From Lysinibacillus sphaericus (GTDB lineage: Bacteria > Bacillota > Bacilli > Bacillales_A > Planococcaceae): a stretch of 64,000 nt of DNA. Position 1 is the stretch's first letter. Each line of letters opens with the position of its first letter. Both the position numbers and the translations under genes were made by a program. Shown here piece after piece: positions 9,495-64,000 of the stretch. Under the pieces are notes generated by a model. It was not told where the DNA came from. It ran no database searches and saw only the letters and a list, made by a program, of their open reading frames with translations. The stretch covers positions 1 through 64,000 of the forward strand of contig NZ_SADV01000019.1 of assembly GCF_006864135.1 (NCBI RefSeq). Reading direction: 5' to 3'.

Positions 9495-10844
9495 TTATTT
9501 CCCTAACATGCTTCGAATTTGTTTAATATCTTGCTGTAGCTGAACGTCATTTTTCAACATAGAAGATATTTTTTCGTGAGCATGGATAACAGTAGTATGG
9601 TCACGTCCACCAAATTCTTCGCCAATTTTCGGCAGCGAAAAATCTGTTAATTCGCGAGATAAAAACATGGCGACTTGACGCGGGAAGGCAATTAACTTCG
9701 TACGTTTTTTCGCGACAAAATCTTCCAAACGAATGTTAAAGTGCTCTCCTACTGCATTTTGAATGTCTAATATCGTGACAGTTCGCGGCTTTGAATTAGG
9801 GATAATATCCTTTAATGCTTCAGCAGCCAAAGTTGCATTAATATCCTTGTTAACAAGTGATGAATAGGCAACGACGCGAATAAGCGCACCTTCAAGCTCC
9901 CGGATATTGGAGTCAATCTGGTTCGCAATATAGAGCATGACTTCATTTGGCACTTCTAGGCCATCAGCCTTTGCTTTTTTTCGAAGAATGGCGATACGAG
10001 TTTCCAAATCAGGGGGCGCAATATCTGTAATTAGTCCCCATTCGAATCGAGAACGTAAACGATCTTCCAAGGTCGGTATTTCCTTAGGAGGACGGTCACT
10101 AGAAATAACAATTTGTTTCGATTCTTCATGCAATGTATTAAAAGTATGGAAAAATTCTTCTTGAGTTGATTCTTTTCCAGCTAGAAATTGAATATCATCA
10201 ATTAGCAGTACATCTACATTGCGATATTTATTGCGAAAATCAAGTGCCTTATTATCTCGAATTGAGTTAATAAATTCATTTGTAAATTTTTCAGATGATA
10301 AATATACCACCTTTGCATTTGGATTATGTTCAAGTACATAATGACCAATCGCATGCATTAAGTGTGTTTTGCCAAGCCCTACTCCCCCATAGATAAAAAA
10401 TGGGTTATAAGCCTTCGCAGGCGCTTCTGCGACAGCTAGCGAGGCAGCATGTGCAAAGCGGTTACCAGAGCCAATAACAAATGTATCAAAAGTATATTTC
10501 GGGTTTAACATACCTGGTGAAATATCATGATGATCGTCATTTTTTGCTTGGATAATCGGCGCTGGTAAATCAAAATCGTCCGAATCCTGGTTTTTTTGAA
10601 CAACAAACTTAATAAGCAAGTCTTCGCCTGTAAGCTCCGTTAATATACCTGTAATCAAATGAATATAATGATTTTCAAGCCAGTCTCGAGCAAACGAATT
10701 TGGCGCAGCAATTGTCACAGTAGAACCACTACCATTGTAGGAAAGTAGTTTAGTAGACTTTAGCCACGTTTCGAAGCTTGGTTTAGAAATTTTTTGTTCA
10801 ACTTGAGCCAGGACATTATTCCATAGTTCTTCTAAATGTTCCAA
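9495..10844 (-). CDS. dnaA: chromosomal replication initiator DnaA
   Basis: Initiator ATPase that binds DnaA boxes and opens oriC. 449 residues. The N-terminal domain I ([20 protein letters not shown]) is followed by a short linker, the AAA+ domain with Walker [10 protein letters not shown] and Walker [12 protein letters not shown], then the C-terminal DNA-binding signature [15 protein letters not shown]. Start TTG at 10844 with AAGGAG 9 nt upstream; no ATG or GTG gives the full domain I. Perfect DnaA boxes upstream suggest autoregulation. Confidence 0.98.
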
Positions 10845-46230: not shown

Positions 46231-46710
46231 GTGAATATAACGATTGTATCAGTCGGAAAACTAAAAGAAAAGTACTTAAAAATGGGAATAGATGAATACG
46301 TAAAACGCCTCGGTGGCTACGCAAAAATGGATTTAATCGAAGTACCAGATGAAAAAGCACCCGAGCAGCTTAGCGAAGCAGAGATGGAAATTGTAAAGAA
46401 AAAAGAGGGTGAACGTATTCTATCTAAAATCAGCCCAGATACATACGTTATCGCCTTAGCCATTAATGGCAAAATGAAAACCTCTGAACAAATGGCGGCA
46501 GATCTTGAATCCCTCATGACCTACGGCAAAAGTAAAATCGCATTCGTCATCGGTGGCTCCCTTGGTTTACACGATGATGTGTTGAAACGTGCTGATGAGA
46601 AACAATCCTTTGGAAAAATGACATTACCGCATCAGCTAATGAAGCTTGTTTTGGTGGAGCAGATTTATAGAAGTTTTAGGATTATAAAGGGTGAACCGTA
46701 TCATAAATAA
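46231..46710 (+). CDS. rlmH: 23S rRNA (pseudouridine1915-N3)-methyltransferase RlmH
   Basis: SPOUT methyltransferase, 159 residues (orfX in staphylococci). [15 protein letters not shown] start, [12 protein letters not shown] knot, C-terminal [15 protein letters not shown] start behind AAAGGTGG. The 3' end (GGTGAACCGTATCATAAATAA) corresponds to the chromosomal attachment site used by SCC elements in staphylococci, and copies of it recur downstream in this window. Confidence 0.96.
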
Positions 46711-46720
46711 GTGCGGTTAT
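46690..46720 (+). other. att-like site 1 (rlmH 3' end)
   Basis: Codons G-E-P-Y-H-K-stop (46690-46710) followed by GTGCGGTTAT. TAAGTGCGGTT (46708-46718) is repeated inverted at 48979-48989. The organisation is like staphylococcal SCC attB with its inverted repeat. Confidence 0.75.
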
Positions 46721-46723
46721 AAA

Positions 46724-46772
46724 AAAAAGCTATCTACATCGTTGACATATCAACGTTCTAGATAGTTTTTTA
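46724..46772 (+). terminator. rlmH terminator
   Basis: CTATCTA (46730-46736)/TAGATAG (46759-46765) with inner CGTTGA/TCAACG, followed by TTTTT. If the SCC reading is right, it lies just inside cassette 1. Confidence 0.85.
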
Positions 46773-46884
46773 TTTTATAGATGATTTTCTTTTTTCCAAT
46801 CACGATATTTCCACCATTCTAAAATTAATTCAACAAAAACCACTGATAATGTGGGAACTATATAGTGTTTTGGAGGACTTATTA

Positions 46885-47139
46885 TTTCGGAAAAACGGAC
46901 TGATTTTTACTTACTCTTAAATTAGGTAAATATAATTTAATTGATGATAAATTTCTAGGATATGCAGCAGCTACGCTGGTTGTACCAACAGCTCTCGCTT
47001 TTACTTATGACCAAACTGAAGGAGTAGTATACAAATAATTTAAAAAGTGACTATCAATGACGATAAGATGGGTATTGAGGACATTGTAAGGAAATATCAT
47101 AATTTAGATTCAAAAGAAGTAATTAATAATCAAAGTTAA
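46885..47139 (+). pseudogene. unidentified gene remnants
   Basis: Two open but startless pieces. One reads KLGKYNLIDDKFLGYAAATL and continues to a stop near 47037, with a hydrophobic segment; upstream ISEKRTDFYLLL is in another frame. The other (47047-47139) reads TINDDKMGIEDIVRKYHNLD and stops. They look like a broken small membrane-protein gene; no family recognised. The rest of the 46773-47151 gap shows nothing. Confidence 0.45.
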
Positions 47140-47151
47140 ATAGAAGGTGTA

Positions 47152-48966
47152 ATGAAAATGGGTTTTCCCTTGATTGGAAGAAAAAAAATATTAAATACCA
47201 GGAGGACAACTAAGCGCTCTAAAAAAGCGAATTCTAGAAGTTTAGTATTTACGAGCTCGTTATTTCTCTCCGCTCTCATAATTATCGTTATCGGATTAAT
47301 GATTTCCCTGTCCATCCGCGAACAACGTGGGGCGTACTTTCGCCAATTTGATGAATATGGAAAAGTATTTAAATCCATAACTCAACAAAATGAACCTCTT
47401 GTTGCCGAAGCAACGAAGACAATTCTTGAGCATCAACCATTGGAGGGAAAACCATTCGAGGAACTCCCCAATATTTTGAATTCTATGAAATCCAATCATA
47501 TGGTAGTGGATGTCTATTTATTAACACCGGACATTATCAAGAAGGATGGCAAAGAATACTTATATAACTCAGAATATGGTCGGGATCCAGTTGAATATGC
47601 TGAAGAGTTAGGTACGTTATATGAATTAGATTCGGAATTTCTTAAAAGTTACGAAGATACAATGAGAAACGGTAGCACCTTAACTGATGTTTACACTGAT
47701 GAAGGTGGAACTTTCATCTCGTATTTAGCGCCGATTAATGACGGAAGCGGGAAACCAGTTGCGTTGCTCGGTGTCGATTTCGATTATGGGATTGTTAAAA
47801 AGGAACTCCAACGAATTCTATGGACGAATATCACGGTTGGTATTTTTTTTGTACTTATGTTAATCGCGTTGGTTGTATTCATTCTTCGTAAAATGTTGCG
47901 TCCGCTTGCACGTTTAGCTGAAGTGTCTGAACATGCTTCGAAAGGCGATTTAACCGTTGAAATTCCTGTACTGAACCATAATGAGATTGGTAAGGCTGCA
48001 AGTTCATTTAATCAGATGATTAGCGGACTTAGGATATTGACCCATAACATACAAAATTCTTCGAATGAAGTTGCAGTATCTTCTTCTCAATTACAAGAAA
48101 GCGCTGCCCAGACCGAAGCAGCTACGCAAGAAATCACAGGTGCCATTCAAAACATTGCTGTTGGTCTCGATGAACAACTTCGTCATACTAATGAGTGTCA
48201 ACAATCAATGAAGGAAATGGGAGTGGGTATTCATAGAATCGTAGATGCATCCTCTGTCGTCTCAGAATTGGCTTCGGTTACAGCAGATAGCGCAAATGCA
48301 GGAATGAAGGATATAGAAACAACAGTTGCTCAAATGAGCACAATTGAACAAAACTTGAAAACATCGGTCGAAGCAATCCATGGACTGAAGAAATTAAGCG
48401 ATCAAGTTAGTGAAATGGTTACATTAATAGGTAGCATTGCTAATCAGACCAATTTGCTTGCACTTAACGCATCGATTGAGGCATCGCGAGCAGGTGAGCA
48501 TGGTAAAGGTTTTGCCGTTGTGGCTCAAGAAATTCGTATACTCGCTGAACGATCTAAAACCTCTTCGGAGAAAATAACTGACATACTCCAAGGTATCAGC
48601 GATCACACGAGTAAAACAGTGGTTTCTTTGGATAAATCAATGACAGAAGCCCAGGCAGGTACACACATTGCGAATAAGGCAGGGCAAACATTTAGTTCGA
48701 TCGTGGAGTCGATTCAGAAAGTGTCTGATCAGATTGATGAAGTATCTGCAGCTTCGGAACAACTGTCATCAGGAAGTGAGTTAGTTGCGGCTTCACTAAC
48801 AGTGCTGGAGGGTATCGCAAATTCATCTTCAGCCGACTCCGCTCACGTCGCCGCCTCATCAGAAGAACAACTTGCAGCCATGCAAGAGGTAGCCAGTTTT
48901 GCAGCTATGCTTTATGGGCTGGCGGATGAATTGAAACAGAGTGTTGACCGTTTCCATGTAAAGTAG
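47152..48966 (+). CDS. methyl-accepting chemotaxis protein
   Basis: 604 residues: basic N-terminus, TM1 (about 27-50), periplasm-side Cache-type sensor (about 55-215), TM2 (about 222-243), HAMP ([20 protein letters not shown]), coiled coil, and the signalling hairpin with [20 protein letters not shown] and [21 protein letters not shown]. Ligand unknown. ATG 47152 with AAGGTG upstream. It is flanked by att-like sites 1 and 2 and its base composition seems slightly richer in GC than its neighbours, consistent with acquisition. Confidence 0.93.
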
Positions 48967-48978
48967 GTTACTGGTTAA

Positions 48979-49030
48979 AACCGCACTTACATTAGTTACG
49001 GAGAACCGTATCATAAGTAAGTGCAGTTTA
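48979..49030 (+). other. att-like site 2 with inverted repeat
   Basis: AACCGCACTTA (48979-48989) is the exact inverse of the TAAGTGCGGTT after rlmH. TACGGAGAACCGTATCATAAGTAA (48997-49020) would encode Y-G-E-P-Y-H-K-stop, a copy of the rlmH end, and is followed by GTGCAGTTTA. Confidence 0.75.
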
Positions 49031-49035
49031 TGAAA

Positions 49036-49082
49036 AGAACCACCTAGAACGTTTTGAGTGTCAGCGTTTTAGGTGGTTTTCA
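49036..49082. terminator. bidirectional terminator
   Basis: AACCACCTA (49038-49046) pairs with TAGGTGGTT (49070-49078) with an inner AACG/CGTT pairing. It serves the minus-strand gene ending at 49084 and the chemotaxis gene. Confidence 0.8.
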
Positions 49083-49083
49083 T

Positions 49084-49713
49084 TTATCCAAATTCAATAA
49101 TGTCAGTTTTAATAAATGAGGGTAGTAACTTTTGTACATTTTCTAATGTTGAAAAGCGATTTTCGTTTGAAAAAATATCTGTACCTTTGAAGTCATGACT
49201 AAATAAAAAAGCGGTTGTTGGTTCGTTAAAATGAATGCAAATGGTCTCCTCTATCGAAGCATCTATCCCATCCGTACGTTTCGCGTCCCAAATTTTGCTC
49301 TCTATCATAAACGTGTCTTTTCGATTTGACCAAATAGAGCACATATTATAATTATGCTGCCAAATCATGATAGGAATTAGGCGCATTAGTTCTTGATGAT
49401 TTATGACAGTAATCATTAAATAAGTGTTCTTTTTTGATTGATAAAATACTTCAAATGGTAGCTGTGCATCATGTAATTCTTGTTTAATCTCTTCAATAAT
49501 TTTTCTATTATTCTGCTCGAATAAATAATAAAGTGGAAATGGGGCTAAGCTTTCTGTAAATAAAGCAAGTTGTTCGTCTGTATAGTCTGGATAATACATC
49601 TCGCCAATATTAATGGCATATTGAATGCCTTCATTTATAGAAAAGTAATAGCCCCCAGTTGAAGGTGCATTTTCATAATACTTTTTGGGTAAAAAGCCAA
49701 TTCCTAAATTCAT
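49084..49713 (-). CDS. hypothetical protein in a one-gene cassette
   Basis: 209 residues, not recognised. Soluble, aromatic-rich, N-terminus MNLGIGFLPKKYYENAPSTG, no signal peptide or TM helix. ATG 49713 is preferred over the GTG at 49722 because AAGGA is 10 nt upstream of the former and almost touches the latter. It is the only gene between att-like sites 2 and 3 and points back towards rlmH. No basis for a function. Confidence 0.7.
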   Translation of the reverse strand: MNLGIGFLPKKYYENAPSTGGYYFSINEGIQYAINIGEMYYPDYTDEQLALFTESLAPFPLYYLFEQNNRKIIEEIKQELHDAQLPFEVFYQSKKNTYLMITVINHQELMRLIPIMIWQHNYNMCSIWSNRKDTFMIESKIWDAKRTDGIDASIEETICIHFNEPTTAFLFSHDFKGTDIFSNENRFSTLENVQKLLPSFIKTDIIEFG

Positions 49714-49757
49714 TACAATCACATCCTTAGATTATAGTATAAATCTGATTGGAAAAA

Positions 49758-49810
49758 AAACGCACTTATACATGTTACGGAGAGCCCTACCATAAGTAGA
49801 TGAGTTTTAT
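49758..49810 (+). other. att-like site 3 with inverted repeat
   Basis: AAACGCACTTA (49758-49768) is inverse to the TAAGTGCAGTTT after site 2 apart from one base. TACGGAGAGCCCTACCATAAGTAG (49776-49799) again encodes Y-G-E-P-Y-H-K-stop through partly synonymous changes. Confidence 0.7.
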
Positions 49811-49883
49811 TCAAAAAGAATTATGGGGTGATTACCGAAGGCAATTAAGTTCCTATTCAAAAAGAGACTTTCAGCGTTAGCAA

Positions 49884-49935
49884 TTAGGTAAAGTCCAATT
49901 TCCAAAGAGCATATAAAGAACATTGGACTTCTCTT
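49884..49935 (+). terminator. orphan hairpin
   Basis: AAGTCCAAT/ATTGGACTT stem followed by CTCTTTA. No gene ends here. The rest of 49811-50204 holds no gene that I can support. Confidence 0.4.
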
Positions 49936-50204
49936 TAGTGAGGCAATCGGATACTTACATTTATAGTAATCTATAACGATTAATAAGAGTAGTCGCAGTT
50001 AAAATGAGCATTAAATATGAGGAAGAATACCGTTTATAGCATTGAATCATCAAAAAATAAGCATGACTGTTAATAAAATCATACAGAATGCGAAGAGAAC
50101 TTGCTGCATTCCTTATCTTTTTTCTCAAAAAATTGCCCTGCGTTAGATAGATCTTAAGAGATTATCAGTATTGTTAATACGTTAAGAAATGAGGGAAAAA
50201 ACAT

Positions 50205-50230
50205 TTGGAATCTGGTATACCAGATTCCAA
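50205..50230. promoter_or_regulatory. 26-bp perfect palindrome upstream of glpP
   Basis: TTGGAATCTGGTA followed by its exact complement TACCAGATTCCAA, no loop. It is 110 nt upstream of the glpP start. Could be an operator; no T run follows. Confidence 0.6.
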
Positions 50231-50340
50231 TGGGACATTGGCCGTATCTTTTCTTTTTTTTAGCTAGGCTTTACAATGACATTGAAATAATACATGTAAC
50301 ATCGTTCAACAGAAGATGTTTCAAAGAGAGGAATTTGTCT

Positions 50341-50943
50341 ATGGAAAAATACGTCGTGGGGCGAGTTTTGCAAGAAAGGTTAGAAAAGCATAAAATGGTG
50401 GCAGCGGTAAAGGATCCAAAGTATATTGAACGAGCTATTAAGTATAAAGAAAATTTAAGCGCTGTATTATTAATGACGGGAACGATTTTAACAGTAAAGA
50501 GATATGTGGATTTCATACAGTCTGAGGGGCTTCCAGTTATTTTACATGTTGAAAAAATAGGTGGATTAGAAATGGATCGTGCTGGAATTGAATTTATAAA
50601 AAGAAATGTTCAGCCGTCCGCAATCGTCACAACGAGGACTGGAATTATAAAAAAGGCAAAATCAAGCGGACTTTTTGTGATTCAGCGAATCTTTTTAATT
50701 GATACGGATGTTTATAATAACTTAGTGGAGGATGCTAGTCAGATTCGCTCAGATATCATTGAGATTATGCCCAGTCGAGCACCAGAATATATAAAAAAGT
50801 TAACAAATGTGTTGTCAGTCCCTATTATCACAGGTGGATTATTAAACCAACCTGAACATGCTAAGGAAGCACTCGAGAATGGTGCCGTTGCGATTTCGAC
50901 GTCAAACTCAGAAATGTGGAAAATGAACTTAAATGAATTATAA
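50341..50943 (+). CDS. glpP: glycerol-3-phosphate-responsive antiterminator GlpP
   Basis: 200 residues, GlpP family (TIM-barrel-like): begins MEKYVVGRVLQERLEKHKMV, has MTGTILTVKRYVDFIQ and near the end PIITGGLL and AVAISTS. In B. subtilis it binds glp leader mRNA when glycerol-3-phosphate is present and prevents termination. The ATG at 50341 is 9 nt after GAGAGG; the open frame to 50230 lacks one. Immediately downstream is a terminator ahead of the transporter operon. Confidence 0.9.
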   Translation: MEKYVVGRVLQERLEKHKMVAAVKDPKYIERAIKYKENLSAVLLMTGTILTVKRYVDFIQSEGLPVILHVEKIGGLEMDRAGIEFIKRNVQPSAIVTTRTGIIKKAKSSGLFVIQRIFLIDTDVYNNLVEDASQIRSDIIEIMPSRAPEYIKKLTNVLSVPIITGGLLNQPEHAKEALENGAVAISTSNSEMWKMNLNEL

Positions 50944-51026
50944 ACAAAATTTACATATCATTAATACTTACTTAATACACACCGTCTATATTATAACTAT
51001 AAAGTGAATAGACAAATGGTGCGGGC

Positions 51027-51086
51027 AGAGAGACCTCAAATACATGTATATGAATATATACATATATTTGAGGTCTCTCTTTTTTG
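51027..51086 (+). terminator. leader terminator of the glycerol-phosphate operon (GlpP target)
   Basis: AGAGAGACCTCAAATA pairs perfectly with TATTTGAGGTCTCTCT, with further pairing inside (ATGTATAT/ATATACAT), then a T run. It comes before, not after, the operon and follows glpP, so antitermination is the likely control. A weak promoter (TTACTT, 18 bp, TATAAC, 50968-50997) precedes it. Confidence 0.75.
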
Positions 51087-51129
51087 TTACGCTTTGCATT
51101 TTCTATAATCATGAACAAAGGAGTTTGCC

Positions 51130-51945
51130 ATGTGGAAAAATAACATCAAGGTATTGATTTTTGATATGGATGGAACGCTCTATCAAGAAGATTCCTTTTT
51201 AGAAAGATACATAACTTATATGTTAGATGATCGATATAGCGACAAGGAAATCGAGCGGGTCATTAACGAAGTTTATGACATCTTAAACGGCAAGCATAGC
51301 GTCTCTTTAGGTCATTACTACGATTTTGCAACAAATAGTATTTTTACGCATTCGGAATTAGTCCCAAATTGTGCTTTCGATTGGGATGGTCAGAAACTGA
51401 ATCATCATTTTTCTAGAGAAAGCCAATTGTTTTATATTGGAGATCCATGGTGTATAGCCTATTTGTTTGGAGAGAAGTTAGGAATCAGTGAAGAAACTAG
51501 AACCAATGCTTATAGCCGAGTGAGGGCTGAAATGTTAACGGCTGACTATGAGATTCCAAAAAGTGAGTCTTTGGTCGAAGTGTTAAAGAATATCGATGTG
51601 GAGATGAAAGTGCTTCTTACGAATGCTCCCTTTGAGTCAGGAGAGGTATTTTTAGAATATTTAGAGGTGCTCCCTTATTTTGATCAAGCCATTTATGATG
51701 GAAAAAAACCGAATGGTATGGAGCAAGTTCTAAAAATGTTAATGGAAAAAGGATATAAACCAGAAGAAATTCTTTCTATTGGCGATAATCCCATTAATGA
51801 TTTATACCCGGCTCGTAAATTAGGAGCTAGGACAATTTTTATTTCGGATTATCGACAAGTAGATCAGACTCCTTGGGATCATAAGGTTCATACTATTGAT
51901 GAATTGGTCTCATTTTTACAACAATTTAAGAAAAGAGAGTTATAA
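51130..51945 (+). CDS. HAD-superfamily hydrolase
   Basis: 271 residues. Motif I DMDGTLYQ, motif II LLTNAP, a Lys in YDGKKPNG, motif IV GDNPINDLYPA: a complete HAD phosphatase set. The cap is helical. In this operon a phosphate-ester substrate such as glycerol phosphate is plausible but not shown. ATG behind AAAGGAG; 33 nt before the ABC ATPase gene. Confidence 0.88.
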   Translation: MWKNNIKVLIFDMDGTLYQEDSFLERYITYMLDDRYSDKEIERVINEVYDILNGKHSVSLGHYYDFATNSIFTHSELVPNCAFDWDGQKLNHHFSRESQLFYIGDPWCIAYLFGEKLGISEETRTNAYSRVRAEMLTADYEIPKSESLVEVLKNIDVEMKVLLTNAPFESGEVFLEYLEVLPYFDQAIYDGKKPNGMEQVLKMLMEKGYKPEEILSIGDNPINDLYPARKLGARTIFISDYRQVDQTPWDHKVHTIDELVSFLQQFKKREL

Positions 51946-51978
51946 ACAAATAGTAAAAGGAAAGAAGGAGATTATTAA

Positions 51979-53100
51979 ATGGCGCACGCTGAACTGGTTA
52001 ATCTTTCAAAATCATATGATGAAAAGTCCCATGTATTAAGTGAAATAAACCTTTCAATTAATAAGGGGGAGTTCTTTGTTTTAGTCGGACCTTCGGGTTG
52101 TGGGAAAAGTACTTTATTAAGAATGATTGCGGGATTAGAAGAAATAACTGGGGGTGTACTAAAGATCAATGATAAAGTAGCCAATCATCTGTCTCCTAAA
52201 CATAGAAATTTATCGATGGTTTTCCAAAATTATGCACTCTATCCTCATTTAACAGTCGAACAAAATATTCTTTTTGGTTTAGATATTAAAAAAGTTGATA
52301 AAAGAGAACAACAAAGAAAACTCCAAGAAACGGCAGAAATGATTGGATTAAGTGAATTATTGAAAAGAAAACCGAGGGAACTATCAGGTGGTCAAAGACA
52401 AAGGGTGGCCCTAGCTAGAGCAGTTGTAAGTGAAGCGCCACTTTGCTTAATGGATGAACCGCTTTCTAATTTAGATGCTAAATTGCGTGCACATATGCGT
52501 GTTGAGATTCGCAAATTACAAAGAGAATTGGGACTTACGATGATTTATGTGACCCATGACCAAGTTGAAGCCATGACGATGGGCGACAGAATTATGGTGT
52601 TAAATGACGGGGAAATTCAGCAAGTTGGGAAACCGATTACGTTATATAACGAACCGGCCAATACATTTGTCGCCTCTTTTATCGGTTCTCCAAAGATGAA
52701 TATGGGAAAAGCTGAACTATCCGTTGAAAAACAACAAATTATGGTTGAAGGTAAGCTTACGTTTAAATTAAGTCCATCAGACTTAAGAAATATACCATCA
52801 GCCAAAAAGACAATGATTGGAATTAGAGCAGAACATATTTTTCCGGCAGCTGAACACGAAGCAACGCATAAGTTGAATGTTGTAGGTGTAGAGCAACTAG
52901 GAAATGAAACGATGATCGTCTTTGAAGAATTAGGCGGCCAATTATGGAATGCTAAATGGCCAGGGCAATGGATGATTTATCCGGGTGATAAAGTTCCAGT
53001 TAAACTATCCGTTCAACATTTTTGTTTCTTTGATTTCGAAACCGGTCAATTATTACAAGCTGCATATAAAGAGCAGAAACAAGAGGTCGTTGCACAATGA
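51979..53100 (+). CDS. ugpC: sugar/glycerol-phosphate ABC transporter ATPase (UgpC-like)
   Basis: 373 residues. Walker A GPSGCGKST, Q-loop VFQNYALYPH, signature LSGGQRQR, Walker B LCLMDEP, and the C-terminal TOBE/MalK regulatory domain. MalK/UgpC/MsmX type. It overlaps the next gene by 4 nt. Confidence 0.92.
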   Translation: MAHAELVNLSKSYDEKSHVLSEINLSINKGEFFVLVGPSGCGKSTLLRMIAGLEEITGGVLKINDKVANHLSPKHRNLSMVFQNYALYPHLTVEQNILFGLDIKKVDKREQQRKLQETAEMIGLSELLKRKPRELSGGQRQRVALARAVVSEAPLCLMDEPLSNLDAKLRAHMRVEIRKLQRELGLTMIYVTHDQVEAMTMGDRIMVLNDGEIQQVGKPITLYNEPANTFVASFIGSPKMNMGKAELSVEKQQIMVEGKLTFKLSPSDLRNIPSAKKTMIGIRAEHIFPAAEHEATHKLNVVGVEQLGNETMIVFEELGGQLWNAKWPGQWMIYPGDKVPVKLSVQHFCFFDFETGQLLQAAYKEQKQEVVAQ

Positions 53101-54035
53101 ATCACGAAGCGGCATTGATGGTTAAACATAATCAAGTTCATTATGAGAGGGTAAAAAAACAACAACGTAGGAAAAACTTTGTAAAGGGGCTTCTATTCTT
53201 ATTACCATCCATCTTTTTATTTAGTGTTTTTATCTTTTATCCAATGATTCGTACAATCTATTTAAGTTTCTTTTTAACCAATCAAGCGGGTGCCACAACG
53301 GTTTTTGTCGGCATACAAAATTATCTAGATCTCTTTACATCTCCGATTTTTATGAAAAGTTTGGGATCAACCTTTTTATTTGTTCTATACACCTTGCCAG
53401 GTACGATTATCATAAGCTTATTTTTGGCCGTTATGGCCAATGAAAAGTTAAAAGGTATTGGCATTTTTCGAATGATTTTCTCATCTACAATGGGAGTTTC
53501 TGTAGCCGCTGCGTCTGTATTTTGGTTGTTCTTATTTCATCCTAGTATTGGATTCTTTAATAAATTATTAGTGACATTTGGTTTTGACAAAATTGCTTGG
53601 TTAACAGATTCGTCGTGGGCACTCCTTTCTGTTTCATTACCTACGGTTTGGATGAATATCGGCTTTACCTTTTTAATTTTACTTGGCGGTTTGCAATCTA
53701 TCGATTCTCACCTTTATGAAAGTGCCGATATTGATGGCGCCAGTTATTTTTACAAATTGCGTCGGATTACGATTCCTATGCTTTCTCCGACCCTATTCTT
53801 TGTGACGACTGTGTCCATCATCAATGCCTTTCAAACCTTTGGTCAAATCGATATGTTGACTAAAGGGGGACCAAGTAATGAAACGAACCTAATCGTTTAC
53901 TCGATTTATCGTGAAGCCTTTGTGAATTATCAGTACGGGTCAGCCAGTGCACAAGCGGTAATCCTATTTATTATTATTTTAATTATGACCGTGATTCAGT
54001 TTAAGCTCGGAGAAAGGAAGGTCCACTATCAATGA
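53097..54035 (+). CDS. ugpA: ABC transporter permease (UgpA-like)
   Basis: 312 residues, six TM helices. The EAA-like loop reads ESADIDGASYFYKLRRITIP. MalF/UgpA family. The N-terminus is Lys/Arg-rich before TM1. ATGA overlaps on both sides (with ugpC and ugpE). Confidence 0.9.
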   Translation: MNHEAALMVKHNQVHYERVKKQQRRKNFVKGLLFLLPSIFLFSVFIFYPMIRTIYLSFFLTNQAGATTVFVGIQNYLDLFTSPIFMKSLGSTFLFVLYTLPGTIIISLFLAVMANEKLKGIGIFRMIFSSTMGVSVAAASVFWLFLFHPSIGFFNKLLVTFGFDKIAWLTDSSWALLSVSLPTVWMNIGFTFLILLGGLQSIDSHLYESADIDGASYFYKLRRITIPMLSPTLFFVTTVSIINAFQTFGQIDMLTKGGPSNETNLIVYSIYREAFVNYQYGSASAQAVILFIIILIMTVIQFKLGERKVHYQ

Positions 54036-54850
54036 GGATGTCTCTTTCCAAAAAAATTATCTTATACATATTGCTCACAATTTCAGCGCTGATCATCTTT
54101 CTACCTATCATTTTGGCTTTTTTAATGAGCTTTATGAACAATCAAGATGTCATGTTAGGTAAAATCATACCTTCTACTTGGACAATAGAGAATTATGTGA
54201 AGGCATTTGAACGCTTACCATTGCTGAAATTTTTATTGAACAGTTTTATTAGTTCCCTGTTGATCATGATTGGTCAGTTAGTTTTATCTAGTTTAGCAGC
54301 TTACGCTTTTGTGTTTCTAAAATTTAAAGGTAGAGATGTGATATTCTACTTGTTTATTGCAACGATGATGATTCCATTTGAAGCATCCATCATCCCGAAC
54401 TTTCAAACGATTAAAGGGATGAATTTAATTGATACGTATCCAGGACTAGCCTTACCCTTTTTGGCTACAGCATTTGGTACATTTTTATTAAGACAAACCT
54501 TTAAACAAATTCCAAAAGAACTGAAAGAAGCGAGTGAAGTTGCAGGTATGGGTGATTTTAAATTTTATTTAACTGTCGTTTTACCTGTCGCAAAAACAAG
54601 CTTAGTTACCTTAGGGATTTATGGCTTCTTATCGGCTTGGAATATGTACTTATGGCCGCTTCTATCCACAACAAATGATACAGTACGAACCGTTCAAATT
54701 GGCTTAAAGCAATTACAATCACAGGAAACAGTCAATCAATGGGGAGTTGTTATGGCAGGTGCCATGATTGTGGCTATCCCTACGTTGCTTTTATTATTCT
54801 TTGGTCAGAAGAAACTGCAAAAAGGATTAGCTGAAGGTGCGCTTAAATAA
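54032..54850 (+). CDS. ugpE: ABC transporter permease (UgpE-like)
   Basis: 272 residues, six TM helices, EAA loop KEASEVAGMGDFKFYLTVVL. MalG/UgpE family. Starts inside the ugpA stop codon. Confidence 0.9.
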   Translation: MRMSLSKKIILYILLTISALIIFLPIILAFLMSFMNNQDVMLGKIIPSTWTIENYVKAFERLPLLKFLLNSFISSLLIMIGQLVLSSLAAYAFVFLKFKGRDVIFYLFIATMMIPFEASIIPNFQTIKGMNLIDTYPGLALPFLATAFGTFLLRQTFKQIPKELKEASEVAGMGDFKFYLTVVLPVAKTSLVTLGIYGFLSAWNMYLWPLLSTTNDTVRTVQIGLKQLQSQETVNQWGVVMAGAMIVAIPTLLLLFFGQKKLQKGLAEGALK

Positions 54851-54915
54851 TTGGCTTTGTTAATGAATGAATCAATCAATCAATCAATCAACACTCCTAT
54901 TTAACAAAGTCCAAT
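54850..54915 (+). repeat. ATCA tetranucleotide repeat within an imperfect stem-loop
   Basis: ATCA is repeated five times (54871-54890) in the loop of a stem ATTGGCTTTGTTAA (54850-54863)/TTAACAAAGTCCAAT (54901-54915). It starts at the ugpE stop codon. Such hairpins often protect or attenuate transcript ahead of binding-protein genes. Confidence 0.75.
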
Positions 54916-54968
54916 AATTATCGGTTTTAACAATATCAATAGATAAATAATCTAAAGGAGAGATGATC

Positions 54969-56294
54969 ATGAAGAAAAAGCTTTTATCCTTATCTATGGC
55001 AAGTTTATTATTGATCGCAGCAGGATGTAGTTCAAGTAATGAGGCTGCAACAAAGACGAAGGAACAAACAGTCGTAACATTTTGGCATTCGATGAATGGT
55101 GTACCTCAAGAAACATTAAATAGTATTGTTGAAGAATATAATAACGCTCAAGATAAAATTCAAGTGAATGCAGAGTTCCAAGGAACCTATGAAGAGTCAT
55201 TACCGAAGTTTCATAGTGTTGCTGGAACAAAAGATGCACCTACAATGATTCAAGTGCAAGAAATCGGGACAATGTCAATGATTAATAGTGGTAAAGTGGA
55301 ACCGATTCAAAAATTTATCGACGCTGAAAACTATGATATGAGTGGACTTGAAAAAAACATCATAAATTATTATAAAGTGGATGGTCAATTCTACTCCATG
55401 CCATTTAACTCATCAACACCAGTCATGTACTACAATAAAGATGCTTTTAAAAAGGCAGGGTTAGATCCTGAAAAAGCTCCACAAACGTTTGAAGAAGTGG
55501 AAGCAGCAAGTAAGAAAATCGTTGCAAGTAATGATCATATGAAAGGGTTCGCCTTACAAGCATATGGCTGGTTATTTGAAGAATTATTAGCCAATCAAGG
55601 TGGCTTGCTTATGAATAACGACAATGGCCGCTCCAAAACACCTACAGCAGTAGCATTTGATAATGAAAAAGGGAAATCAATCTTTGAATGGGCGAAAAGA
55701 ATGAATGACGATGGAACTTTCGCCAATTATGGAACAAACTCTGATAATATGGTTTCAGGTTTCTTAGCAGGCGATGTTGCTATGTTCTTACAATCTTCAG
55801 CTTCTTCAAGAGATGTTATAGATAACGCACCATTTAAAGTAGGTGTAGCATTCCTCCCTCACCCTGAAAGTCAAGAACGCCAAGGTGTAGCAATTGGAGG
55901 AGCAAGTTTATGGATGTCAGGTGGTAAAGATGAGGAAGAACAAAAGGCAGCATGGGCATTTATGAAATATTTGCAAACTCCAGAAGTACAAGCTAAATGG
56001 CATGTAGGTACAGGTTATTTCGCCATCAACCCAGCTGCTTATGATCAGCAAGTCGTTAAAGATGCTTATAAAAAAATGCCGCAATTACAAGTTTCTGTAC
56101 AACAACTTCAAGCAACAAAACCATCTTATGCGACACAAGGAGCATTAATGGATATGATTCCTCAAGAACGTAAAATCATGGAAACGGCACTTGAAACAGT
56201 TTATAACGGTGGAGGCGTAGACGAAACCTTTGATAATGCGGTTAAACAAGTGAATGCAGCCATCGAACAATCAAACGCAGCAAGAGGTAAATAA
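54969..56294 (+). CDS. ugpB: extracellular solute-binding lipoprotein (UgpB-like)
   Basis: 441 residues. Lipoprotein signal with lipobox LIAAGC (Cys about 20), then a mature family 1 binding protein (VTFWHSMNGVPQETLNSIV; AWAFMKYLQTPEVQAKWHV). ATG 54969 is 8 nt after AAAGGAG; the ATG at 54963 is too close. Glycerol-3-phosphate or glycerophosphodiester is inferred as ligand from glpP and ugpQ. Confidence 0.9.
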   Translation: MKKKLLSLSMASLLLIAAGCSSSNEAATKTKEQTVVTFWHSMNGVPQETLNSIVEEYNNAQDKIQVNAEFQGTYEESLPKFHSVAGTKDAPTMIQVQEIGTMSMINSGKVEPIQKFIDAENYDMSGLEKNIINYYKVDGQFYSMPFNSSTPVMYYNKDAFKKAGLDPEKAPQTFEEVEAASKKIVASNDHMKGFALQAYGWLFEELLANQGGLLMNNDNGRSKTPTAVAFDNEKGKSIFEWAKRMNDDGTFANYGTNSDNMVSGFLAGDVAMFLQSSASSRDVIDNAPFKVGVAFLPHPESQERQGVAIGGASLWMSGGKDEEEQKAAWAFMKYLQTPEVQAKWHVGTGYFAINPAAYDQQVVKDAYKKMPQLQVSVQQLQATKPSYATQGALMDMIPQERKIMETALETVYNGGGVDETFDNAVKQVNAAIEQSNAARGK

Positions 56295-56393
56295 ATTTCC
56301 ATAATAAAAGATTAAGGTAATAGACGTAGAGAATGAAGTGATAATATATGCTTTGTTCTCTATCTCCTTTTCCAAGAAAGGATGCTATAGCTT

Positions 56394-57149
56394 ATGAATC
56401 ATACGAAAATTTTTGGTCACCGAGGGAGTATGGGGACTATGCCAGAAAACACATTATTAGGATTCCGTCATGCATTGGATTTAGGTGTGGACGGTATTGA
56501 GCTTGATGTGCAATTAACAAAAGATGGGGAATTAGTCGTGATTCACGATGAACAAATTGATCGAACGACAGATGGTTCAGGCTATGTCAAAGACTATACT
56601 TTAGCCCAATTAAAACAGTTTAGTACAGGTATTAAATTTTCCCACTTAGCATTGTTTGATAAAAATGTTTGGAGTAAAGAGAGGATACCGACACTAGAAG
56701 AAGTTTTAGAATTAATTGTCCCCTATCAGATTGAGTTAAACATAGAATTGAAAACGAATATTTTTCCGTACGATGGTATTCAAGAAAAAGTGATAGCTAT
56801 AGTTAATCAATTTGACTATGCTGATAAAGTAGTTTACTCATCATTTCATTTACCTTCTATTGTAAAATTGAAACAAATGGAACCAAGTGCAAAAATCGCC
56901 TGGTTATTAGAATATGAGCTGAGCCGCCCTTCTGAATACGTTAAAAGTTTATATTTAGAAGGACTACATCTTCATAAGGATTTATTATTAAATGGGGTAT
57001 ATGATAAAAAAAGTGGCGCTGATTTTAATATCCGAGTGTGGACTGTTAATAATGGAAAAGAAATGGAACAACTATTAAAAATGAATAACGTAGAAACCAT
57101 TGTAACAGATTTTCCGAGGGAAGCTATTTCTTTAAGAACTGATCAATAA
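56394..57149 (+). CDS. ugpQ: glycerophosphodiester phosphodiesterase
   Basis: 251 residues, GDPD family: GHRGSMGTMPENT near the N-terminus, ELDVQLTKDGELVVIHDE and LNIELKTN provide the catalytic His and metal ligands. Cytosolic (no signal). Splits imported glycerophosphodiesters to glycerol-3-phosphate and an alcohol. GAAAGGATG upstream. Last gene of the operon. Confidence 0.94.
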   Translation: MNHTKIFGHRGSMGTMPENTLLGFRHALDLGVDGIELDVQLTKDGELVVIHDEQIDRTTDGSGYVKDYTLAQLKQFSTGIKFSHLALFDKNVWSKERIPTLEEVLELIVPYQIELNIELKTNIFPYDGIQEKVIAIVNQFDYADKVVYSSFHLPSIVKLKQMEPSAKIAWLLEYELSRPSEYVKSLYLEGLHLHKDLLLNGVYDKKSGADFNIRVWTVNNGKEMEQLLKMNNVETIVTDFPREAISLRTDQ

Positions 57150-57460
57150 GTACATATCGAAATAAGTGATGACAAACAGGCAATGACTTTTCCTGTAGCT
57201 TATTTGGCTCCTGAAAGTAGATACGTTTTTTTATTAAGTCCTCTATATGTCGTTACTTGTAGTCTATTTAAAATTTTTGATCGATTTAAAGAAAAACGAA
57301 AAAATATAAAACTATTGGTTAGCCTGATCTGAAAAGCGCTATTTTACACCAATTGCTAAGCAGTTATCGCCCAATTTGTTTTAAAATAATTTTTATCAAT
57401 TTCTCACAATGGCCATCTATAGAGATGAAGATCTTATAGGGAAGTATAATATAAACGAAA

Positions 57461-57515
57461 AAATAAGCTGTATAGAAAGTTAAATTTCAATAACTTCTGT
57501 ACAGCTTATTTTTTA
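57461..57515. terminator. terminator, about 310 nt after ugpQ
   Basis: AAATAAGCTGTA (57461-57472) pairs with TACAGCTTATTT, with AGAAAGTT/ACTTCT extending the stem, then TTTTT. Between it and ugpQ is an open but startless stretch (to about 57332) in the ugpQ frame. No other gene is seen in 57150-57633. Confidence 0.75.
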
Positions 57516-57633
57516 ATTAATATGCCTTAAAGCATACGTCTCACTCTATCAACACTCTTGAAAAATTGATCATGTATGCCTTAAATTTGCATGAGGCATA
57601 AACATAATCAAGAGGCATAGTAAGAACTATTCG

Positions 57634-58056
57634 TTAACTTTTTATAGCTAGGCCACTAAAAGAAATCGGTCCAACAATGTTTGCTTGTGTGTTGGGTGTA
57701 ATATTCTCAGCAAAAACCTGATAGAAGTTAGCGCCAGCTATCAAATTGGAATCAATAGCTTGGAAGGTAAAGATGTAATTTTGTTCTGAACCAGCTGACT
57801 CTACTCCATCTTGCGTATTATAGATTTCTTTCCCGTTACGGAAGACTCTAAATACAATTTGGGAAATATCAGTAACTCCTGCCACGCCGATGCTTGCAAG
57901 TAGCTCAACACTATTGTTTCTTGAAGCGGTGCCTGGGATGTTTATTTGAATCGAAGCTAAAAGAATTTTAAATGGTGCCTGCGGAATTGGAAAAGCAGTT
58001 GCTGGGTTAAACGTACTTAGAGGTTCAGTTGCTTGGTAATCAAGAATTTGTACCAT
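57634..58056 (-). CDS. exosporium protein C-like protein
   Basis: 140 residues; begins MVQILDYQATEPLSTFNPAT and contains FRVFRNGKEIYNTQDG and GPISFSGLA. From memory it resembles exosporium protein C of the B. cereus group: a beta-rich, TNF/C1q-like small spore-surface protein. A strong AAAAGGAGGTGAT lies upstream of the ATG at 58056. It is probably sporulation-controlled; no promoter was identified. Not related to the adjacent transporter operon. Confidence 0.65.
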   Translation of the reverse strand: MVQILDYQATEPLSTFNPATAFPIPQAPFKILLASIQINIPGTASRNNSVELLASIGVAGVTDISQIVFRVFRNGKEIYNTQDGVESAGSEQNYIFTFQAIDSNLIAGANFYQVFAENITPNTQANIVGPISFSGLAIKS

Positions 58057-58308
58057 TTTATCACCTCCTTTTGCTAGGATACTATAAGATATGTTCTATA
58101 TTAGAGTTGAATTGTGTAGTAAACTAAGCCGTGTTATTTTTTAAACTTCGTCTAGTGAACTGTTCTAGTTTTTATGGAATTATGAGCTTTCAAATTAAAA
58201 TCATTTAGACTTACGATCATAAGTTTGAAGTAATAAAATAGGTGAAAAGGTATGTGAACATAGTTGTTTTCCATACCTTTTAAGATGAGATGGATTAAAG
58301 AATGGTAT

Positions 58309-58650
58309 TTAAATTGGAGGCAGCTTTTCTTTTGGCATTGAAATGAGCCAAATAAAATCATCTTCAATAATAATTTGAATGTCTTGGCCGAGGCTAATTA
58401 ATTTCTCCGCTTTTAATTGTTTCGTACTTATACCGCGACGTTTGTCCCCGAGAATAACGAAATCTGTATCTTGTGTCACAGTCCCTTGCATAATTCCTCC
58501 ACAAGATCGTACTCTTTTCGCAGCTTCTGAACGTGTCATCGTGGAAAGGGCCCCTGTAAAAACGATTTGTTTATTATAAAACGGATGCATCAAGCACTCG
58601 GATGGATCAGAAAGTAAGATGATTTCTGTGTTGTCCTTATTGTTGTTCAT
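58309..58650 (-). CDS. stand-alone BRCT-domain protein
   Basis: 113 residues. From about 30: QIVFTGALSTMTRSEAAKRV, then CGG, TDFVILGD and the C-terminal hydrophobic EDDFIWLI: a single BRCT domain like that of NAD-dependent ligase or polymerase epsilon-like proteins, without any catalytic part. ATG 58650 is 6 nt after AAGGAGA; the longer frame runs through att-like site 4 and has no signal. Function unknown. Confidence 0.82.
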   Translation of the reverse strand: MNNNKDNTEIILLSDPSECLMHPFYNKQIVFTGALSTMTRSEAAKRVRSCGGIMQGTVTQDTDFVILGDKRRGISTKQLKAEKLISLGQDIQIIIEDDFIWLISMPKEKLPPI

Positions 58651-58752
58651 GTTGGTTCTCCTTGATGATTTCAACCTAAATGATAGGTGAGCTTGATTAT
58701 AATTTGAATAATGACCGGTAACAAAGGAATAGTACTCTACATCAAAACTAGT

Positions 58753-58776
58753 CATGGAGAATCGTATCATAAGTAA
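58753..58776 (+). other. att-like site 4 (rlmH 3'-end copy)
   Basis: CATGGAGAATCGTATCATAAGTAA would encode H-G-E-S-Y-H-K-stop. The core CGTATCATAAGTAA equals that of site 2. An inverted repeat is not clear here. Confidence 0.6.
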
Positions 58777-58828
58777 AGGAGGTTGGTAGATGTAATTGAT
58801 ACACGCTAGAGGAAATGTACTTGAAGTA

Positions 58829-58850
58829 CCGTATCGAAAATAGTGCAATT
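58829..58850 (+). other. att-like site 5, degenerate
   Basis: CCGTATCGAAAATAGTGCAATT aligns with the rlmH-end sequence CCGTATCATAAATAAGTGCGGTT with a few changes. Confidence 0.4.
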
Positions 58851-63389: not shown

Positions 63390-64000
63390 ATGAGTAACAG
63401 ACAAATTAAATCAGATGTTATCTTAATTGGTGCCGGAATCATGAGTGCGACTTTGGGGACAATGCTCAAAGAATTAGCGCCAGATTGGAAAATTACAGTG
63501 TTTGAGCAGCTCGATAAAGCTGGTGAAGAAAGTTCTCACGAATTAAATAATGCGGGAACTGGGCATGCGGCACTTTGTGAGCTTAACTACACTTCAGAGA
63601 AAAAAGACGGATCAATCGATATCAGCAAAGCGATTAAAGTTAATGAACAGTTCCAACTTTCAAAACAATTTTGGTCTTATCTTGTGAACAACCAACTGAT
63701 CAGTAATCCGCAAGACTTCATTATGCCTTTACCTCATATGAGTTTAGTACAAGGTGCAGACAATGTAGAGTTTCTAAAAAAACGTCATGAAACGATGACA
63801 AAAAATCCTTTATTCCAAGGTATGGAATTTTCTGATAACCCAGAAACACTAAAGGAATGGATTCCTCTTATTATGGAGGATCGTCCAGCAGATGAAGCGA
63901 TCGCTGCGACAAAAATTGACACTGGTACAGACGTTAACTTTGGTGCATTAACACGTATGTTATTCGACCACTTAAAAAATAAAGACGTTGACATCAACTA
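63390..64000 (+). CDS. mqo: malate:quinone oxidoreductase (5' part)
   Basis: Membrane-associated FAD enzyme that oxidises malate to oxaloacetate with transfer of electrons to quinone. About 203 residues are in the window, with no stop. The FAD motif [20 protein letters not shown] and [20 protein letters not shown] are typical of Mqo. ATG 63390 behind AAGGAAGG. The gene continues past the window end. Confidence 0.95.

Follow-up and report, generated by a model that had tools for sequence, protein, structure and literature searches.

Putative SCC-like cassettes arrayed in tandem behind rlmH in Lysinibacillus sphaericus

Staphylococcal cassette chromosome (SCC) elements, comprising SCCmec as the carrier of methicillin resistance, composite SCCs and ccr-less pseudo-SCCs, target the 3' end of rlmH, are bounded by direct and inverted repeats, and occur as tandem composites of units with and without ccr genes. 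Insertion at rlmH and tandem composites are already published outside staphylococci as well. According to the accessible part of the respective report, the Enterococcus cassette chromosome (ECC) of Enterococcus faecium also uses rlmH as target, with a TATCATAA core in a dyad-type attachment (att) site of about 50 bp, and relies on large serine recombinases (PMC6222049). Likewise, the accessible text on rlmH-inserted PolA-SSB islands from several Bacillota describes rlmH repeats, large serine recombinases, empty sites and tandem composites, the latter in Paenibacillus pinistramenti (PMC10061031), and in a further source, available in part, GA is given as the central dinucleotide for CcrAB and rlmH insertion in other genera is listed (PMC10581047). 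Here, we describe a stretch of 64,000 nt from the soil bacterium Lysinibacillus sphaericus (NZ_SADV01000019.1, positions 1-64,000, assembly GCF_006864135.1), termed the window throughout, in which rlmH is followed by what is best read as a row of SCC-like cassettes, inserted one after another at the end of the gene and moved by a CcrB-like recombinase. From sequence comparison, we assign this reading a rough probability of 0.85.

A preliminary description, made from the letters of the window alone, had noted that the end of rlmH recurs downstream of the gene. Using an att weight matrix of 22 columns derived from the rlmH 3' end (seven seeds, four of them being the window sites themselves), three strong further copies were found on the same strand as rlmH, and together with the site of rlmH itself these are the only sites of at least 13 bits on both strands of the 64 kb (Table 1), while a total of one match of at least 17 bits turned up in 20 sequences simulated from the window with a first-order Markov model. 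The copies generally encode GEPYHK-stop as described, except for the one at 58756, which encodes G-E-S-Y-H-K-stop. However, the repeat is not limited to the rlmH end, as had been supposed: the actual site spans about 50 bp, the inner copies carrying a AAAACCGCACTTA-like arm before the core and a TAAGTGCGGTTTT-like arm after it. They thus form dyads around a central GA and resemble attP sites of serine recombinases, with the arm pairing given in Table 1; the site of rlmH itself has 10 of 25 arm positions paired. Hence, two hallmarks of SCC are found in the window, namely insertion at the rlmH 3' end and flanking direct repeats with terminal inverted repeats, the distal copy being without paired arms. 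Of the degenerate fifth copy that had also been proposed, a weak resemblance remains; its score is likewise reached by one minus-strand position in 64 kb and GT replaces the central GA, so that it was discarded as evidence. In the draft genome to which the window belongs, an 18-base pattern retrieved four exact sites, three of them in the rlmH array of the window, where the 49779 copy escapes the pattern because it ends in TAG. The fourth, of rlmH type and accompanied by part of an inverted-repeat arm, stands alone on another contig (G000:C6:96042-96062; L104:12042-12063), near genes which we take to be glnA-like and Tn554-like; being a single site, it was rejected as a second array. In these codes, G000 denotes the draft genome of the window, other G numbers stand for congeneric genomes and L numbers for extracted loci.

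The same kind of site was followed through 32 genomes of the genus, one per species, for which reason few recent events are to be expected in this sample. Altogether 31 rlmH loci were available (the window and 30 others, two of them shortened by contig ends), as the rlmH search gave no match in G010, a genome of 86% completeness, and in most genomes arrays were followed to 20 kb. Taking the first site per locus as that of rlmH itself, which undercounts L057 by one, 24 of the 31 loci hold extra sites of at least 17 bits, 62 of these lying on the rlmH strand and one on the opposite strand. When only the right half was scored, 91 plus-strand sites and one minus-strand site were obtained, with a GA centre in 79 of the 91. 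Arm pairing of these 79 sites averaged 8.0 of 25 positions for the first site per locus and 13.35 for the 48 others, compared to 6.8 at random places. An exact 21-base pattern matched 75 times in the 32 genomes and its reversed control not once; by hand count, 54 matches coincide with rlmH or follow it within 35 kb, 20 are found elsewhere, and one could not be placed. Beyond the genus, the best 80 of 267 loci of RlmH relatives (some duplicating strains of the genus sample, some offering less than 10 kb downstream) included 43 with extra sites within 10 kb, amounting to 78 sites, versus one in the control (minus strand or upstream). That the copies are chance or low-complexity matches, which would have undone the preliminary description, could apply to the fifth copy only; for the four strong sites it is refuted by the strand bias of 62:1 and the empty reversed-pattern control, leaving this explanation a practically negligible probability.

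Candidate enzymes for these sites are encoded in relatives of the window strain. With the CcrB-like protein of G021 (assigned L. sphaericus 2362) as query, the ten best matches in the 32 genomes (at least 209 bits) all lie within 24 kb of rlmH, and the eleventh (185 bits) is located on a contig other than that of rlmH. A CcrB-like gene that is free of stops and no more than 24 kb away from rlmH is present in 8 of 31 genomes (G007, G008, G019, G021, G027, G029, G030, G031), G013 holding a fragment only, and six such genes reside within intervals having sites at both ends. Against the NCBIfam CcrB model NF047343, nine rlmH-linked recombinases scored 209-454 bits and three unlinked ones, picked without rule while others were left out, 115-179 bits; it is the score and not the model name that separates the two sets. 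All seven scanned of the nine rlmH-linked recombinases combine Resolvase, Recombinase and zinc ribbon domains. The unit of G027 additionally carries DUF1643, RadC and DUF927 plus Cch-HTH genes and that of G029 DUF927 plus Cch-HTH genes; such combinations of DUF1643, RadC and DUF927/Cch-type genes with a CcrB-like recombinase are also known from SCC. A 281-amino-acid (aa) tyrosine recombinase (L043:9986-10831) is encoded between the Cch-like and CcrB-like genes of the G027 unit, and a similar open reading frame (ORF) occurs in the unit of G019 (L036). In G030 (L. macroides DSM 54; L055:722-4022), two recombinase genes face rlmH, the first terminating inside the 3' end of rlmH, on the strand opposite to it. 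One could argue from the tyrosine recombinase beside the Cch-like gene of G027 that this enzyme type, or another integrase, uses the rlmH end, with the Ccr-like genes as passengers. Such a scenario is very improbable, as the near-constant GA-centred dyad corresponds to the site form described for serine recombinases in the accessible part of the ECC report (PMC6222049) and CcrB-like genes are rlmH-linked in the eight genomes named above.

Comparison of the regions downstream of rlmH, suggested in the preliminary description, revealed a variable gene order. The distance from rlmH to the first conserved core gene on the right, which we take to be mqo-like, amounts to 321 bp in Paenisporosarcina sp. 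OV554, 743 bp in Viridibacillus arvi and 16,680 bp in the window. One pair of genomes differs exactly at the site: in G027 (L. capsici PB300), a recombinase-bearing unit of 14,651 bp lies between rlmH and a cassette which in G014 (assigned L. boronitolerans) directly adjoins rlmH. The two sequences agree from GAACCGTATCATAAGTAAG onwards; what precedes the core is rlmH in G014 and the last part of the additional unit in G027. Judged from this alignment, the unit would have inserted behind rlmH, in front of a cassette already present, or it was lost in G014.

The intervals between neighbouring sites are mostly small. From 67 intervals between sites of at least 15 bits in 25 loci, two of 72-73 bp were set aside; 51 of the remaining 65 are shorter than 5.5 kb, and among these 51, 19 contain a single non-overlapping ORF of at least 90 aa. 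In L032, L041 and L059, small cassettes encode defence-like proteins (AbiU-like AIPR, GmrSD-like, UvrD-type helicase). Recurrent intervals form eight groups with members in two to four genomes each. G003 and G007 share an interval of 2,188 bp at 99.6% identity (rlmH 92.9%), G029 and G023 one of 2,868 bp at 99.4% (rlmH 95.6%), and G026 and G009 one that is 97.0% identical over 3.2 kb (rlmH 88.9%). Across genera, a cassette in Solibacillus palustris matches the histidine-kinase cassette of G003 and G007 over 2,183 bp at 97.6-97.9% identity (rlmH 78.8%, versus G003), and a transporter cassette of G014 matches Ureibacillus galli at 94% (rlmH 74.3%). These comparisons bear on the idea that cassettes are exchanged by homologous recombination after DNA uptake, via rlmH and downstream flanks and without any site-specific recombination. 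The rlmH identity of 84-96% in eight within-genus pairs measured would permit this, and the cassette of the G014/G027 pair has diverged as much as rlmH. In contrast, the junctions of that pair lie at the GA core, and the cross-genus cassettes are 94-98% identical at an rlmH identity of only 74-79%, which renders such an exchange very unlikely. Altogether, variable arrays, the G014/G027 pair, cassettes shared between genomes and between genera and the CcrB-like genes in 8 of 31 genomes support the initial proposal that SCC-like elements inserted one after another at the end of rlmH.

Within the window, E1 and E2 are bounded by rlmH-type att sites and lack ccr, as pseudo-SCCs do. In E1, a chemotaxis receptor is encoded by the sole non-overlapping ORF of at least 90 aa. 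The part from 47129 to 49020 recurs, bounded by att sites and at other array positions, in G028, G025 and G021 with 97.4, 96.6 and 95.8% identity, respectively; the first 0.4 kb of E1 is different from G025 and G021, which agree end to end (95.2%). The 212-aa protein of E2 gave no match in Pfam, NCBIfam or PADLOC at 0.001, and PADLOC found none for either protein of E1 and E2, the cargo of which is oriented differently (plus in E1, minus in E2). E2 itself is 96% identical over 755 bp to G018 (L039) and 91.4% over 769 bp to Viridibacillus soli (L127). The third interval, E3, had been taken as a single unit between 49800 and 58776 and is probably a composite of two. From 49800 to about 57437, one 98-bp alignment is found in total at a minimum length of 80 bp in 37 rlmH regions, and several are found from 57437 to 58776. 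The right-hand part is att-flanked on both sides in G015 and G028, its left att was not detected in the window, and the left part of E3 has no right-hand att of its own. One intact cassette was therefore rejected for E3, given the alignment break at about 57437 and the loss of an internal att. The genes at 51130..57149, in which the ABC ATPase and the two permeases are presumed from their ORFs, probably constitute a glycerol-phosphate uptake operon. At 1e-100, its solute-binding protein is present in 4 of the 32 genomes, and it is linked to rlmH solely in the window, which led to rejection of an ancestral position of the operon at rlmH. To the right, the variable stretch may extend to 63.2 kb.

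No recombinase is at hand in the window itself. As stated initially for ccr, a Recombinase-domain search gave no match on the contig of the window; the suggestion to look for ccr homologues elsewhere in the genome was not borne out, since the draft genome gave no match at 1e-30 to the CcrB-like protein. Its contig C11 holds two Recombinase-domain matches above the family cut-off (41.6 bits, with an internal stop, and 31.8 bits, in a 265-aa frame), neither located at rlmH nor reaching 1e-30 versus the CcrB-like protein. A ccr gene within the element, as is typical of SCC, is thus absent from the window and present in units of relatives. Because neither the window units nor their own genome offer a CcrB-like match, the units are probably recombinase-less SCC-like cassettes moved in trans, or they are stranded. 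This is in line with the original proposal of remnants or mobilisable cassettes, which the att-bounded E1 and E2 and the shared cassettes of relatives support. Of these two, remnants would be what is left of full-length SCC-like elements after deletion of ccr, their small size reflecting decay. Several observations can be accommodated in this way, namely the unmatched CcrB-like gene in the draft genome, the composite-looking E3 with one att lost, the missing left att of the E2 matches in two relatives and the decayed arms of the distal site. Yet some small units reappear, unchanged in length and with both ends, at other array positions and in another genus, as exemplified by the 2,188-bp unit of G003 and G007 and its 2,183-bp counterpart in S. 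palustris, and decay is hence considered possible but rather unlikely. The broader alternative, for which we see about even odds, is that rlmH serves as a shared platform in Lysinibacillus and neighbouring genera for small, often single-gene cassettes without recombinase, which CcrB-like enzymes would move in trans between genera, in the manner of a serine-recombinase counterpart of the integron pool, with part of the cassettes bringing their own terminator.

For the array of SCC-like cassettes, the following mechanism can be envisaged. A large serine recombinase of the CcrB-like type, its gene residing on larger SCC-like units of other strains and species, would recognize the GA-centred dyad and join a circular cassette to rlmH, whereby the last codons of the gene would be restored and a direct repeat would be left at the far end. 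New units would enter beside rlmH and displace older ones outward. While sites, polarity, GA centre, variable arrays, the one pair differing exactly at the site, inter-genus sharing and rlmH-linked CcrB- and Cch-like genes can be read directly from the genomes, the acting enzyme and the circular intermediate are inferred, and entry beside rlmH as a rule would be extrapolated from the G014/G027 pair.

Several points weigh against this reading. Excision and the circular form of a cassette are presumed steps. According to the accessible text of one source, serine integrases generally do not recombine pairs with attP-like arms on both sides (PMC3783163); as the inner sites are attP-like on both arms, excision of a single inner cassette would be left unexplained. 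By matrix count, 7 of 31 loci in the genus are without an extra site, two of these being truncated by contig ends, and the 20 of 75 exact pattern matches away from rlmH mean that rlmH is not the exclusive target. None of the nine rlmH-linked recombinases comes near the 900 bits required by the CcrB equivalog model, which is also the NCBIfam model that fits the three unlinked controls best, and 209 versus 179 bits is a small margin. The draft genome of the window has no CcrB-like match at the threshold given above, and the E2 matches in G018 and V. soli keep the right att, with the left one undetected. Finally, the G014/G027 cassette is 95.0% identical, no more than rlmH at 95.2%, and the difference between the two genomes may represent a loss in G014.

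A further feature of the cassettes is found at their left ends. Compared to 300 controls, 19 of 65 left ends fall into the most stable 5% of predicted folds, versus 4 of 65 right ends; for the left ends, this corresponds to a binomial P of about 3e-10 assuming independent cassettes, some of which are relatives of each other. Stable left-end hairpins are present in E1 and E2 and not in E3, and a consensus terminator scan lists neither of the two. By their position and fold, these hairpins might terminate transcription of rlmH and thereby shield the gene.

Table 1 Features of the rlmH region in the window
Feature	Positions	Strand	Evidence or remark
rlmH (rRNA methyltransferase), 3' end = att site	46231..46710	+	Pfam PF02590 SPOUT_MTase, 196.6 bits
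First att site, rlmH half and left end of first cassette	46690..46711	+	Central GA 46693-46694
Cassette E1, 2,310 bp between GA centres	46694..49003	+	att-bounded
Hairpin followed by T's, left end of E1, directly behind rlmH	46727..46771 (approximate)	+	Fold -22.5 kcal/mol for 46711-46790
Methyl-accepting chemotaxis protein, 604 aa	47152..48966	+	PF00015, PF00672; PF02743 under cut-off
Second att site, attP-like dyad	48977..49029, core 49000-49021	+	19/25 arm positions paired
Cassette E2, 779 bp	49004..49782	+	att-bounded
Hairpin, left end of E2	49037..49079 (approximate)	+	Fold -25.3 kcal/mol
212-aa protein, sole non-overlapping ORF of at least 90 aa in E2	49084..49722	-	ORF call
Third att site	49757..49807, core 49779-49800	+	16/25 arm positions paired
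E3, interval up to last strong att, 8,977 bp	49783..58758	+	att at both outer ends
GlpP-like glycerol-3-phosphate-responsive antiterminator, start uncertain	50230..50943	+	PF04309
HAD phosphatase, presumed ABC ATPase, two presumed permeases, solute-binding protein, GDPD	51130..57149	+	Pfam for HAD, solute-binding protein, GDPD
Older unit, 140-aa ORF and BRCT-domain ORF	57437..58758	-	att-flanked both sides in G015 and G028
Distal att copy, encodes GESYHK	58756..58777	+	7/25 arm positions paired = random level
Candidate fifth copy	58823..58844	+	Central GT instead of GA; just under 10.8 bits
First conserved right-hand core gene	63390..64000 (to 64871 on contig)	+	tblastn, 18 other loci (two strains counted twice)

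Secondary arrays away from rlmH probably occur as well. In G011, three successive rlmH-type sites lie about 2.2 Mb from rlmH (L189:8088-9983; G011:C1:4202087-4203982), delimiting units of 1.3 and 0.55 kb, and the alignment with G010 ends just beyond the first att core. These sites are followed by what we take to be a que-type operon, which in G031 (L048) stands behind the rlmH array. For a secondary site in G031, an unoccupied counterpart was sought and none was found, the matches being mainly to short repeats. In G013 (L. piscis; L057, in rlmH orientation), where rlmH ends in NAPYHK instead of GEPYHK, two att pairs are spaced by 72-73 bp (526-619 and 10230-10324) and resemble cassette ends free of cargo.

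Compared to the described systems, the arrays differ from SCC in their genus, in their recombinases, which reach 209-454 bits at a cut-off of 900, and in the prevalence of small intervals (51 of 65 below 5.5 kb, 19 with one ORF). ECC elements average 42 kb and carry ccrAB, unlike the units of the window, and the accessible part of that report makes no mention of arrays of small units (PMC6222049). The work on PolA-SSB islands focuses on primase-bearing units, and the word Lysinibacillus does not occur in its main text (PMC10061031). IME8 of L. sphaericus was also considered as the identity of the array and rejected, since the accessible text describes it as a different element that targets yolD via tyrosine recombinases (PMC13239906). 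Hence, the initial view that nested rlmH islands are little described outside staphylococci and macrococci does not hold for E. faecium and several Bacillota (as the parts available of PMC6222049 and PMC10061031 indicate); for Lysinibacillus it stands, as no paper on rlmH cassettes was among the matches listed in a literature search with coverage excluding most subscription journals. As far as this literature goes, the pool of small cassettes in several genera, their sharing between genera and the left-end hairpins appear to be new.

Integrons, too, hold arrays of small cassettes common to several genera, and the arrays described here are alike in this respect by analogy. They are unlike integrons in that serine-type dyads replace attC, some cassettes start with a stable hairpin and the cargo faces either way; the dyads in particular would argue against membership in this group.

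With these arrays, SCC-type biology would be placed in mostly environmental bacteria, with cassettes crossing genera, and a system without resistance genes in view would be at hand for asking how ccr-less cassettes move. The findings suggest that the rlmH platform with Ccr-type enzymes extends beyond the resistance elements of staphylococci, with implications for the origin of the latter.

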